From: Actinomycetota bacterium
GTDB taxonomy: Bacteria; Actinomycetota; UBA4738; HRBIN12
Direction of reading: 5' to 3'
Length of the DNA stretch: 64,000 nucleotides
NCBI GenBank assembly: GCA_035640355.1
Contig: DASQWI010000026.1
Coordinates: 62,001-126,000 of the forward strand
The notes beneath the pieces are model-generated. The model ran no database searches. It was not told where the DNA came from and was given only the letters and a program-made list of their open reading frames with translations. The position numbers were made by a program, and so were the translations under genes. Shown here piece by piece: positions 15,503-48,664 of this stretch; within the stretch, counting starts at the first letter, position 1, and each line of letters opens with the position of its first letter.

Positions 15503-15551
15503 ACGCCGTCAGCGTAGCCAGTCCGCACCTCCGCCGGGAGGCATCACAAAA

Positions 15552-15582
15552 GCAAGACCCGGGAACTCGTCCCGGGTCTTGC
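15552..15582 (-). terminator. strong intrinsic terminator of the small Lys-rich gene
   Basis: A perfect 13-bp stem (GCAAGACCCGGGA) with a 5-nt loop is followed on the minus strand by TTTTGTG. It closes the minus-strand group at 15.6-18.4 kb and insulates the Crp-like gene. Confidence 0.85.
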
Positions 15583-15606
15583 CAAACGGCGAGTGCGAAC
15601 CGCGCT

Positions 15607-22531: not shown

Positions 22532-22758
22532 CAGTCGATCCGGTCCACCTGCAGGCCGATGTCCGCGAGCCAGCTCACGGCCTCGGCGATTCGGTCGTCG
22601 TCGCCATCGACCTCGACGATGATCCAGCCGCCGCGTTCCTCGTCGAGGTTCGCCCGCCGGATGTTGGTGACCAGACCGAACTCCGTCCCCATCCGATGGA
22701 TGACGGGCTCCGAGATGAGGTCCTCGGGGAACGTGAGATGGAGGCGAGCCTTCGACAT
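22531..22758 (-). CDS. NIL-domain protein
   Basis: 75 residues making up a single ferredoxin-like NIL domain (RLHLTFPEDLISEPVIHRMG, NIRRANLDEERGGWIIVEV, AVSWLADIGLQVDRI). NIL domains occur at the C terminus of methionine transporter ATPase MetN and as stand-alone small proteins in Actinomycetota, where they are thought to sense amino acids. ATG 22758; a longer frame upstream is low-complexity. Confidence 0.82.
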   Translation of the reverse strand: MSKARLHLTFPEDLISEPVIHRMGTEFGLVTNIRRANLDEERGGWIIVEVDGDDDRIAEAVSWLADIGLQVDRID

Positions 22759-22827
22759 CGCGGCAATCCTGACAGAAGCCCGGCGCCGCACGTCTTGGAA
22801 CCAACCCTGGCCATTGAACGAGCGACA

Positions 22828-22851
22828 GCCCCGGGACGGGGATCCCGGGGC
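22828..22851 (-). terminator. intrinsic terminator after groEL
   Basis: A 9-bp GC stem (GCCCCGGGA / TCCCGGGGC) with a 6-nt loop lies 60 bp past the groEL stop. The downstream minus strand has only scattered T, so efficiency is uncertain. Confidence 0.65.
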
Positions 22852-22910
22852 CGTCACATCGGAGAGAGGGGGCTCCTCACTGAGGGATTCGTCGAGGAGC
22901 CCGCGTGGGT

Positions 22911-24533
22911 TCAGAAGTCCATGTCACCGCCACCGCCGGGCATCGGCGGCGCCTTCTCCTTCTCGGGCTTCTCGGCCACGACTGCTTCGGTCGTCAGGAA
23001 CAACGCCGCGATCGATGCGGCGTTCTGCAGCGCCGAGCGCGTGACCTTCGTGGGGTCGATGATGCCGGCCTTGAACATGTCGGCGTACTCCCCCGTCGCC
23101 GCGTCGAGCCCGTGACCGACGTCCAGACCGCGTACCTTCTCGATCACCACACCGCCCTCCAGACCCGCGTTGTGGGCGATCTGCTTGAGCGGCTCCTCCA
23201 GCGCCCGCCGGACGATCACGGCGCCCGTGAGCTCGTCGCCCTCGAGGTCCACCTTGTCCAGGGCGGCCTGCGCGTTGAGGAGCGAGACGCCTCCACCGGG
23301 GACGACGCCCTCCTCGACAGCGGCCTTCGTCGACTGCACGGCGTCCTCGATGCGGTGCTTCTTCTCCTTCAGCTCGACCTCGGTGGCCGCGCCGACCTTG
23401 ATCACCGCGACGCCGCCCGCGAGACGCGCCAGCCGCTCCTGCAGCTTCTCGCGGTCGTAGTCGGAGTCCGTCTTGTCGATCTCGGCCTTGATCTGGTTGA
23501 TCCGGCCCTTGATGTCCTCTTCCCTGCCGCCGCCCTCGACGACCGTCGTGTCGTCCTTGGTCACGACGATCTTCCGGGCCGAGCCGAGCAGGTCGATGGT
23601 CGCGTTCTCGAGCTTCAGGCCGACCTCCTCGGAGATGACCTGACCGCCGGTGAGGATCGCGATGTCCTGGAGCATTGCCTTGCGGCGGTCGCCGAAGCCC
23701 GGCGCCTTGACCGCGCCCGAGCGGAACGTGCCACGGATCTTGTTCACCACCAGCGTGGCAAGTGCCTCGCCCTCGACGTCTTCGGCGATCACCAGGAGCG
23801 GCTTGCCGCCCTGCATCACCTTCTCGAGCACCGGGAGCAGGTCCTTCACCGCGCTGATCTTCTGGTTGGCGATGAGGATGTACGGCTCCTCGAGCACGGC
23901 CTCCATGCGTTCGGCGTCAGTGATGAAGTACGGCGAGATGTATCCCTTGTCGAACCGCATGCCCTCGACGAGCTCGAGCTCCATGCCGAAGGTGTTCGAC
24001 TCCTCGACGGTGATCACGCCGTCCTTCCCGACCTTGTCCACAGCTTCGGCGATCTGCTCGCCGATCTCGGGGTCGGCCGCGGAGATCGCGCCGACATGGG
24101 CGATCTCCTCCTTCTGCTCCACTTCCTTGGACTGGTTCTTGATGCTCTCGACGGCGAGCTCGACCGCGCGCTCGATGCCGCGCTTGATCGCCATCGGGTT
24201 GGCGCCGGCCGCGACGTTTCGCAGCCCTTCCTTGACGATCGACTGTGCCAGGACCGTGGCGGTGGTCGTGCCGTCGCCCGCTACGTCGTCGGTCTTCTTC
24301 GCGACCTCCTTGACGAGCTCGGCGCCGACCTTCTCCAGCGGTTCCTCGAGCTCGATCTCCTTGGCGATCGACACGCCATCATTGGTGATCGTGGGGGCTC
24401 CCCACTTCTTCTCGAGGACGACGTTGCGACCCCTCGGCCCGAGCGTGATCTTGACCGCGTTGGCCAGCATGTCCATGCCGCGCTCGAGGGCTCGCCGCGC
24501 TTCCTCGTCGTACGAGATGAGCTTCGGTGCCAT
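22911..24533 (-). CDS. groL: chaperonin GroEL (Hsp60)
   Basis: An ATP-driven folding chamber; 540 residues. Apical and equatorial signatures include [33 protein letters not shown] (ATP binding, residues 84-97), [15 protein letters not shown] and [20 protein letters not shown]. The C terminus is the GGM-like tail PGGGGDMDF, as in actinobacterial GroEL2, not the His-rich GroEL1 type. ATG 24533 has GGAGGAGG upstream. There is no groES in the operon. It is controlled by a promoter with CIRCE, so HrcA heat-shock regulation is predicted. Confidence 0.98.
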
Positions 24534-46901: not shown

Positions 46902-47246
46902 GTGCAGGCGGTCTCAGCGGAACGATTCGTCGAAGACGGGACCCTGACCGTCGCGCCCGACCTTCCGGCGTCGGGCGGGAGGAGCGAATACCCCCTCGTC
47001 CTGGTCGAATGGCACGACGCGTGGTTCGACGCCGACCAGTCCGGACCGGAGGACTGCCGCGCCGACTACGTGGTCCGAACGGTCGGGTTCTTGATCGCCG
47101 ACGGCCCGAGATTCCTGTCGATCGCCCATGAGGTCCTTCCGGACGACGACGGGTTCCGCGCCGTCACGCACATCCCGCTCGCCATCGTCGAGTCGGTCAC
47201 GAACCTGTCGCTGCAGCCGCAACGAGACGCTTCGACACTTCCCTGA
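46902..47246 (+). CDS. hypothetical protein, 114 residues
   Basis: Acidic, soluble, with a beta-rich centre (YPLVLVEWHDAWFD, DYVVRTVGFLIADGPRFLSIAHEV, THIPLAIVESVTNL). Family not recognised; the pattern resembles small actinobacterial proteins of phage-like origin but without support. GTG 46902 follows AGGAGAAGGCGAC. Confidence 0.6.
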   Translation: MQAVSAERFVEDGTLTVAPDLPASGGRSEYPLVLVEWHDAWFDADQSGPEDCRADYVVRTVGFLIADGPRFLSIAHEVLPDDDGFRAVTHIPLAIVESVTNLSLQPQRDASTLP

Positions 47247-47261
47247 GCGCACGCGAGCCCC

Positions 47262-47267
47262 TATACT
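47262..47267 (+). promoter_or_regulatory. -10 element (TATACT) of the RIO kinase leader
   Basis: A near-consensus -10, AT-rich against the local background. It would start a transcript about 250 nt before the kinase start. No clear -35 at the right distance. Confidence 0.5.
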
Positions 47268-47321
47268 TCGGCGAACGGATACCGGAAGCGTCCAGAAGGC
47301 CCCGGAAGGAGGGATGAAGAC

Positions 47322-47375
47322 ATGACAGCGAACGCCGCCGCCGTGATGCCGCATCCCTCGAGGAGCGCGATCTAG
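47322..47375 (+). CDS. 17-codon leader ORF upstream of the RIO-type kinase
   Basis: MTANAAAVMPHPSRSAI, started by ATG with GGAAGGAGGG nearby, and ended 29 nt before an intrinsic terminator. A second ATG frame (MTAPYAHRHDL, 47464) has AAGGAGG and overlaps the kinase start in another frame. It may be a regulatory upstream ORF; no amino-acid bias gives away a sensed metabolite. Confidence 0.35.
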   Translation: MTANAAAVMPHPSRSAI

Positions 47376-47404
47376 CCGCAGGGTCCGTCCAGGCCCGCAC
47401 CGCC

Positions 47405-47430
47405 AGCCGCCCCCGAGGGGCGGCTTTCTT
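47405..47430 (+). terminator. intrinsic terminator/attenuator inside the kinase leader
   Basis: AGCCGCCCC-CGA-GGGGCGGCT followed by TTCTTG. It lies between the leader ORF and the kinase gene, so transcripts from 47262 must read through it. Confidence 0.75.
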
Positions 47431-47525
47431 GTTGCCCTTATCCCACCGGAAGGAGGTACGTCGATGACTGCGCCCTACGCGCACCGACACGACCTGACCG
47501 TAGCGACAGGGAAAGGACACCAGCG

Positions 47526-48296
47526 TTGGAAACGCTCGAGAACGAAGACAGCTCGTTCAACTACTTCATCGACGAGGGCCTGATCACGGACGTCGTTCGG
47601 GTCATCAAGACGGGGAAGGAGGCGTCCGTCCACTTGTGTCGGGCGAACCTCGCCACCGGCGAGGACCTGGTCGCGCTGAAGCTCTACCACCCGCTCGATC
47701 GCCGGGATTTCCGTGACGAGTCGCTCTACAGGGACGGCGAGTGGATCAAGGAGCGACGCATCCGCGTCGCACTGGAGAAACGCACTCGTTACGGACGCGA
47801 GGTGCAGGGATCGATCTGGGTGAACCGAGAGTGGGAGACCCTGACCGCGCTCTCAGAAGGCGGGGCGCCGGTTCCACGCCCCATCGCCGCGACACACGAT
47901 GCGATCCTCATGTCGTACATAGGCGATAACGAGATGGCGGCGCCGCAACTGCGCTCAGTCCGGCCCGACCGCGATGAGGCACACGACCTGTTCGAGCAGA
48001 TGATCCGGGCGATCGAGATGATGTTGTTTCGCAACGTCATCCACGGCGACCTGTCGGCATACAACGTGCTGATATGGGATGGCCGCGTGACCGTGATCGA
48101 CCTGCCTCAGGCAGTGGATCCAAGGAAGAACCGGCACGCCGAGGGGCTCCTGGAACGCGATGTAACGCGGATCTGCGAGCACTTCGAGCGCTACGGCGTC
48201 CGATCGTCACCGAAGAGCATCGTGTCCGACCTATGGACGGGGTGGACGTTCGCCGACCTCGTCCCCGAAGAGCTGCGTGTCGAGCTGGAGCTCTAG
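47526..48296 (+). CDS. RIO1-like atypical serine kinase
   Basis: 256 residues. RIO signatures: flexible loop TGKEASVHLCRA (P-loop-like STGKEA), IHGDLSAYNVLIW (catalytic HGDLSxxN) and TVIDLPQAVD (metal-binding IDxPQ). RIO kinases or ATPases act in archaeal and eukaryotic ribosome maturation; bacterial roles are largely unknown. TTG 47526 has AAAGGA 8 nt upstream. It converges on a hypothetical gene with 4 bp overlap. Confidence 0.9.
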   Translation: METLENEDSSFNYFIDEGLITDVVRVIKTGKEASVHLCRANLATGEDLVALKLYHPLDRRDFRDESLYRDGEWIKERRIRVALEKRTRYGREVQGSIWVNREWETLTALSEGGAPVPRPIAATHDAILMSYIGDNEMAAPQLRSVRPDRDEAHDLFEQMIRAIEMMLFRNVIHGDLSAYNVLIWDGRVTVIDLPQAVDPRKNRHAEGLLERDVTRICEHFERYGVRSSPKSIVSDLWTGWTFADLVPEELRVELEL

Positions 48297-48664
48297 GCGT
48301 TACGCGCGCCGCGGAACTCGAGCGTGTAGGTCCACGCCGAGCCGTCGGGCGCGTGCTCGAAGCTCTGGAGCCGCCCGACCTCGCCGCCAGGGAGGAGCAC
48401 GGGAAGTCCAACGTGCTCCGATCCCGGCCACAGCTCCTCGCGCACCCGCTCATCCAGCCGGAGCAGTGTCATGGGCTCCTCGCCCGAGCGTTCGAGCGGC
48501 TCGCACCACTCGGCGCCCTTCTGATCCGCCCGGCGGAACCGAACGAGCTTCGGCACGGCGTGGAGCAGCAGTGGCTCGCCGGGAAACGCCCAACCCTTGC
48601 CGAAGAAGCGCCACCGTTCGCCGTCCTTGGACGTCTCGACGGCCCAGGGGATGTGTTCGCCCAC
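48293..48664 (-). CDS. hypothetical protein, 123 residues
   Basis: Soluble, mixed alpha/beta, rich in Trp/Arg/Glu (IPWAVETSKDGERWRFFGKGW, GLPVLLPGGEVGRLQSFEHA, WTYTLEFRG). Not recognised. GTG 48664 lacks a clear ribosome site. Convergent with the RIO-type gene. Confidence 0.55.
   Translation of the reverse strand: MGEHIPWAVETSKDGERWRFFGKGWAFPGEPLLLHAVPKLVRFRRADQKGAEWCEPLERSGEEPMTLLRLDERVREELWPGSEHVGLPVLLPGGEVGRLQSFEHAPDGSAWTYTLEFRGARNA

Follow-up and report, generated by a model that had tools for sequence, protein, structure and literature searches.

A short leader ORF and competing RNA pairings suggest translational attenuation upstream of actinobacterial RIO1-type kinases

The gene of a RIO1-type kinase in a 64-kb stretch of actinobacterial DNA (the window, taken at its full length of 64,000 nucleotides) is preceded by a leader that is probably a cis-acting leader-ORF attenuator dedicated to this kinase. 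A short ORF led by a Shine–Dalgarno (SD) sequence, a promoter-like element, and a set of predicted RNA pairings are conserved in the actinobacterial RIO loci compared, and in folding models the position of a ribosome on the leader slightly shifts the exposure of the kinase SD. What is conserved, the comparison supports in substance, is a leader-ORF switch that would work at the level of translation through the kinase SD, rather than the intrinsic terminator or the second ORF (ORF2) that also lie upstream of the kinase. An earlier note on this DNA had described the region as an attenuator-like leader; conservation and covariation bear out a leader dedicated to the kinase, and the main device appears to be translational, a feature that the note had not seen.

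The RIO1-Type Kinase and the Layout of Its Leader

The window kinase matches the Pfam RIO1 family (E = 1.7e-39; 135.8 bits against a cut-off of 22) and solved relatives named RIO1 (best E = 1.3e-21). Its translation contains KTGKEASVH, VIHGDLSAYN, and IDLPQ, which we take to be the catalytic motifs of the RIO1 domain. The kinase domain family is common to this bacterial protein and the archaeal and eukaryotic RIO1 kinases; assignment to the PA4780-family RIO1-like proteins (NCBIfam NF041645) is not supported, at 177.8 bits against an equivalog cut-off of 350. Bacterial RIO1 proteins were already listed in 2005, in passages of PMC1262709, and in the literature searched neither a signal nor a substrate was found to be established for the RIO kinases of bacteria. 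The distribution of the kinase is patchy: it occurs in 18 of 61 near genomes, in 15 of 27 genomes of the order, and in 34 of 396 genomes sampled across the phylum, 5 of the last being weak matches. Family f61 has 17 strong kinase matches in 120 genomes, one of them a partial kinase, and 55 of the 120 genomes match once weak kinase matches are included.

The elements that had been listed ahead of the TTG start, namely TATACT, an ORF of 17 codons preceded by a strong ribosome site, a terminator, and a second ORF, are all present in the sequence (Table 1). The AAGGAGG of the leader ribosome site occupies 47306–47312. The AAGGAGG claimed for ORF2 is likewise present, but at 47450–47456; position 47464, where the earlier note had placed it, is the ATG.

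Table 1. Features of the leader and kinase in the window
Feature	Position	Strand	Evidence
Promoter −10-like element TATACT	47262–47267	+	Sequence; TAnnnT at the same distance in 30/42 loci
Leader SD region, segment 1, AAGGAGGGATG	47306–47316	+	Complementary to 47352–47359, z −3.4
Leader ORF, 17 codons, MTANAAAVMPHPSRSAI	ATG 47322 to TAG 47375	+	SD-led short ORF in 42/42 RIO loci
Segment 2, putative anti-SD within the end of the leader ORF, CATCCCTC	47352–47359	+	Pairing tests
Segment 3, post-stop stretch, complement of the kinase SD region	47376–47391	+	L001 z −2.7, p = 0.013
Intrinsic terminator, 9-bp stem and T-rich tail	47405–47432	+	Strict scan; in 6/45 homologous segments
ORF2 with its own SD, across the kinase start in another frame	47450–47583	+	Intact in L001 and L002 only
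Segment 4, kinase SD region, GGGAAAGGACACCAGCG	47509–47525	+	Pairing with segment 3
RIO1-type kinase, TTG start, 256 aa	47526 to TAG 48296	+	Pfam RIO1; solved RIO1 relatives

Two neighboring genes flank this arrangement. A 114-aa protein encoded at window 46902–47246 (+) has no Pfam or NCBIfam match, and its motif is found at just 8 of the 42 RIO loci, so that the leaders do not share a common upstream gene. A DUF7712 protein at window 48293–48664 (−) converges on the kinase, and the two ends overlap by 4 nt.

Conservation of the Leader ORF

An SD-led short ORF precedes or spans the kinase start at every one of the 42 actinobacterial RIO loci compared, these being the distinct RIO loci with complete upstream DNA; where several short ORFs were listed at a locus, the leader was chosen by eye. 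The leader has a strong SD at all 42 loci, starts with ATG at 40, and is 13–24 codons long at 40, the exceptions in length being L031 (34 codons) and L035 (48 codons), whose leaders extend over the kinase start. The leader of L034 (22 codons) overlaps the kinase start by 4 nt. Under a fixed rule (12–25 codons, SD duplex ≤ −11.4, and a stop 25–160 nt before the gene start), 38 of the 42 RIO loci passed, with L031, L034, L035, and L046 failing, as against 5 of 344 non-RIO control genes, drawn from the window and from twenty stretches of 20 kb in genomes of the same kind; up to four starts were tried per control gene, which favors the controls, and gene calling was crude throughout. A promoter-like TAnnnT element lies 34–72 nt before the leader ATG at 30 loci, compared with 5.3 expected, and shifted controls gave 2/42, 0/41, and 0/41.

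If the leader were an RNA thermometer or a protein-binding element, hairpins on both SDs would melt or be bound and the ORF would be incidental; the leader SD is indeed strongly paired in the naked RNA upon folding, and the peptide is not conserved. An intact ORF with a good SD, start, and stop at all 42 loci would not be kept absent translation, and we consider a thermometer or protein-binding leader very unlikely.

A check of breadth covered 7 of 10 named records. The leader is present at the Nonomuraea gerenzanensis RIO locus, and none was listed at five proteobacterial RIO loci (Aeromonas, Paraburkholderia, Pseudoalteromonas, Halomonas, and a Comamonadaceae).

On plasmid pRadio1 of Deinococcus radiophilus, upstream of 1318 (L118), a 42-codon SD-led ORF was seen by eye before a RIO1 kinase, together with the SD complement CCTCCTT and a small hairpin, AACCTGAGCAGGTT, over the stop. 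The leader could thus extend to another phylum, that of Deinococcus.

Dedication of the Leader to RIO Kinases

A covariance model built from the f1-group leaders scores best in its own genome at the RIO leader (E = 1.8e-17), with the next match at E = 0.0117. Across 27 genomes the model gave 12 matches at E = 8e-11 or better, all of them training loci. Two further RIO-linked matches lie outside the training set: L092 (2.1e-8), where the start of a second RIO kinase follows at the end of a contig, and L077 (2.8e-5), where a decayed RIO kinase follows. Matches at non-RIO sites were obtained at L093 (2.1e-5), L078 (1.6e-4), L079 (1.8e-4), L094 (3.0e-4), and L080 (0.001), along with many weaker ones; the leader layout was absent, by eye, from these five. 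When 60 genomes were scanned with a model of the f61 leaders, the 9 matches at E ≤ 3.8e-7 all fell at RIO loci and covered 9 of the 10 RIO-bearing genomes among the 60 (one of them, G416, was not in training). Three weak matches (0.0012–0.0058) lay elsewhere, of which two fall inside coding frames and the third precedes a transporter-like gene.

A multi-gene regulon with a common leader was not found, the own genome scoring the RIO leader only. Rfam 15 gave no leader match to a known structured RNA family in the window or in ten sampled loci.

The genome with L092 (G024:C32) has a RIO kinase elsewhere; L092 itself comprises a second leader, with a terminator, and the beginning of an additional RIO kinase gene, of which the first codons are present, and represents either a duplicate gene or a strain mixture. 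The site before the transporter-like gene (L133, G423:C1:3618051-3618125; E = 0.0012) has a strong GGTGGCCGCC...GGCGGCCACC hairpin just ahead of the GGAG and ATG of that gene.

Competing RNA Pairings

Four segments of the leader are predicted to compete for partners: the leader SD (segment 1), the end of the leader ORF (segment 2), the stretch following its stop (segment 3), and the kinase SD (segment 4). Pairing of segments 3 and 4 (3:4) would conceal the kinase start, 2:3 pairing would release it, and 1:2 pairing would occupy segment 2. In the window, GAGGGATG of the leader SD pairs with CATCCCTC at the end of the leader ORF. Against codon shuffles at the 42 loci, the 1:2 duplex has a mean z of −1.3 (Stouffer −8.5), with z above zero at 9 loci; in the f1-group alignment of 16 sequences, 85.0% of its cells are paired versus 81.1% in shuffles (2/500), and double changes are not in excess.

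The pairings that involve segment 3 were evaluated at 38 loci; L031, L034, and L035, whose leaders overlap the kinase start, are not among these. The mean z of 2:3 is −2.1 (Stouffer −13), and 3:4 has a Stouffer value of −7.0; the loci are related, so these summed scores, like that of 1:2, overstate independence, and the exchange and covariation tests are safer. For 3:4, the exchange test favors native over swapped partners, at p = 0.0018 within f61 and p = 0.0006 among the other loci. For 2:3, the f61 leaders have a 9-bp helix flanking the leader stop, in which 155 of 162 cells are paired over 18 sequences (p = 0.0004). Covariation across relatives, which had been suggested as a check on the leader, was found here: in a 13-sequence f61 alignment, 97.4% of the 2:3 cells are paired and both sides have changed in 5 of 9 pairs, and none of 500 shuffles attains any of the measures. 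The f61 swap test for 2:3 is weak (p = 0.036), while the pair count is strong.

The covariation and exchange results, together with the difference between 38 of 42 RIO loci and 5 of 344 control genes, leave a purely chance arrangement barely credible, even with single-locus z-scores that are often modest and a permissive terminator scan that stays near expectation.

Modelled Effect of Ribosome Position

Folding at 38 loci was modelled with the leader occupied by a ribosome footprint, and the named segments were scored. Moving the modelled ribosome from the leader start to the leader stop makes the kinase SD less open at 19 loci and more open at 2 (p = 0.0005); the shifts in accessibility are small (means 0.40 versus 0.36), and the sign was unclear in an earlier ribosome-position run. 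Outside f61, a ribosome at the start opens the kinase SD relative to naked RNA at 8 of 20 loci and closes it at none (p = 0.006). The f61 leaders favor 2:3 even as naked RNA, and the default state may therefore differ among lineages; modelled 3:4 in this family is 0.10 in naked RNA, 0.23 with the ribosome at the start, and 0.37 with the ribosome at the stop, and the local fold agrees weakly (10 of 18 lower at the stop, 2 higher; p = 0.048). In the window, the model with a ribosome at the stop leaves the kinase SD unclosed (0.42 versus 0.29 naked). The safest statement common to these models is that full translation of the leader would favor a closed kinase start and an early-held ribosome an open one. 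Given the footprint assumed, “early” would mean approximately the first three codons, because segment 1 is the SD itself.

The proposed mechanism is as follows. A single transcript would carry the strongly initiated short leader ORF and then the weakly initiated kinase. A ribosome reaching the leader stop would mask segment 2, allowing 3:4 to form and turning the kinase off, whereas a ribosome stalled at or near the leader start would mask segment 1 and leave segment 2 free for 2:3, turning the kinase on. The direction of regulation in this scheme is our inference.

The same layout could instead reflect translational coupling, in which ribosomes coming from the leader reinitiate at a weak TTG or GTG kinase start and pairing merely tunes the process. 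The kinase starts are weak in this sense (TTG at 24 loci, GTG at 10, and ATG at 8, making 34 of 42 non-ATG), and many leader stops are near the kinase start or overlap it; against this, the distance from stop to start reaches 150 nt, and coupling does not require a covarying hairpin over the stop or an anti-SD before the kinase. We judge coupling to be unlikely as the principal device.

The Leader Peptide and the Probable Signal

What is kept in the leader seems to be the RNA rather than the peptide. Over four close pairs, the leader peptides have pN and pS of 0.05 each; the kinase has pS of 0.17–0.29 and pN of 0.02–0.03 in three comparable pairs, L042/L043 being left out of the kinase values as unaligned. 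The peptides are rich in A, S, T, V, P, and R and share no regulatory codon run. They are loosely alike within groups, which, with the conserved synteny, would fit a micropeptide that has a function of its own and is encoded in one operon with the kinase; the equality of pN and pS and the lack of relationship between groups argue against such a peptide, and the RNA pairings account for the common motifs, making it highly improbable.

Attenuation by an amino acid was rejected on the lack of both a codon run and coding constraint; of the hallmarks of such attenuators, a terminator between leader and gene is found in the window and a codon run is not. This combination of no codon run and equal pN and pS points to a general ribosome signal (inhibitors, cold, or failing small subunits) rather than to an amino acid. 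General ribosome behavior, or translation stress, is accordingly the likeliest signal to be read by the leader, as judged from sequence.

One specific version of this signal, which we hold to be rather unlikely, is that the leader monitors ribosome quality by detecting ribosomes that bind the strong SD yet cannot leave the start. The stuck small subunits would be immature, damaged, or blocked by cold or drugs, and segment 2 would be freed only when a ribosome is arrested within the first few codons, since segment 1 is the leader SD. The RIO kinase would be made when 30S subunits fail and would then act on the small subunit, closing a feedback loop. Yeast Rio1 inspects the 3′ end of 18S rRNA, according to PMC11045238, and this surveillance is the proposed counterpart of the bacterial loop, which it renders attractive but unproven.

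If the attenuator reading is correct, a conserved and dedicated leader that reads ribosome behavior would link bacterial RIO kinases to translation, and a leader reporter screen for the inducing stress could indicate the kinase substrate. The leader-ORF attenuators would then also include one that is distributed across many Actinomycetota families, with at least one Deinococcus case recognized by eye, and that precedes a gene not known for drug resistance and not concerned with amino acids.

Relation to Known Attenuators

The predicted pairings are mutually exclusive, with 3:4 hiding the kinase SD, and so have the structure of an erm-type attenuator, for which a four-segment arrangement is characteristic. 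As described in passages of PMC9178857, the erm-type attenuators of ermC and ermB resemble the window leader in combining competing hairpins with a short ORF that has a ribosome site of its own; their downstream SD (GGAG in ermB) and start stay concealed until a ribosome stalls on the leader, which is the behavior proposed for the RIO leader. The RIO leader differs from them in preceding a RIO kinase, in having no conserved arrest peptide, and in using the leader SD itself as one arm of the switch. A second likeness, claimed without common sequence, is to the toiL uORF of topAI-yjhQ in E. coli; in passages of PMC12121999, this uORF senses general translation stress, as is proposed for the RIO leader, ahead of a gene not tied to drug resistance, but it differs in genes and phylum, and Rho-dependent termination is central to it. 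A third likeness is to the actinobacterial amino-acid leader-peptide attenuators (PMC1262725): in both, alternative hairpins come after a short ORF, and the window has a terminator as well; unlike them, the RIO leader has no regulatory codon run and does not precede an amino-acid gene.

The literature searched, which lay mostly outside subscription journals and hence provides weak evidence of absence, contained no account of leader ORFs upstream of RIO kinases in bacteria. A survey of noncoding RNAs (PMC6429828) mentions neither RIO nor kinase, and RIO kinases are not the topic of the passages shown of a survey of premature terminators (PMC2965389).

The Terminator and ORF2

The earlier note had looked to conservation of the hairpin and both ORFs among relatives. 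The first ORF is conserved as described above; the intrinsic terminator is present in the window but is a lineage-specific variant and not part of the conserved core, and ORF2 was found intact in the own genus only. The terminator consists of a perfect 9-bp hairpin at 47405–47425 followed by TTCTTGTT. A permissive terminator scan is not significant (2 found versus 1.5 expected in 4 kb), and a strict rule retains two sites only over both strands of the window, of which the leader hairpin is one. The other site, at window 15551–15583 (−), has a 14-bp perfect stem followed by T's.

Between leader and kinase, a strict terminator occurs in 6 of 45 segments (the window, L002, L010, L012, L013, and L092), a scan in which L011 is not judgeable owing to N runs and the Deinococcus segment is just 18 nt long. 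The bearers are the own genus and four loci of the sister family f4. In the lineage of the window, the terminator may add transcription-level control or replace translational control with it.

Transcription attenuation by this terminator, directly controlled by leader translation, was also considered as the main device. The terminator is strong in the window and in the sister lineage, and segment 2 is also able to pair with its 3′ arm (L001). Its presence in so few segments speaks against it, as does the position of the stem, which starts 30 nt downstream of the leader stop in the window. The footprint of a ribosome at the leader stop should be too short to reach that far, and a direct block of the terminator by such a ribosome was rejected on this distance. 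We regard terminator control as very doubtful as the main device and retain the translational switch as the conserved one.

ORF2 is intact only in two own-genus genomes (L001 and L002), and among the 42 RIO loci its conservation outside the genus was not found. In a sister genome, fragments of a decayed RIO kinase lie in different frames behind an intact leader ORF, MMAEVLVALPHPSGVAR (L077/L018; G005:C128, approximately 22750–23038). The leader has been kept there, and the kinase remnant starts with AGAAGGAGGCCCATCGATGACTGCG, close to the GGAAGGAGGTACGTCGATGACTGCG of ORF2. One possible origin of ORF2 is an earlier start of the kinase, of which it would be a relic; alternatively, it may be a second leader ORF like that described for ermB in passages of PMC9178857.
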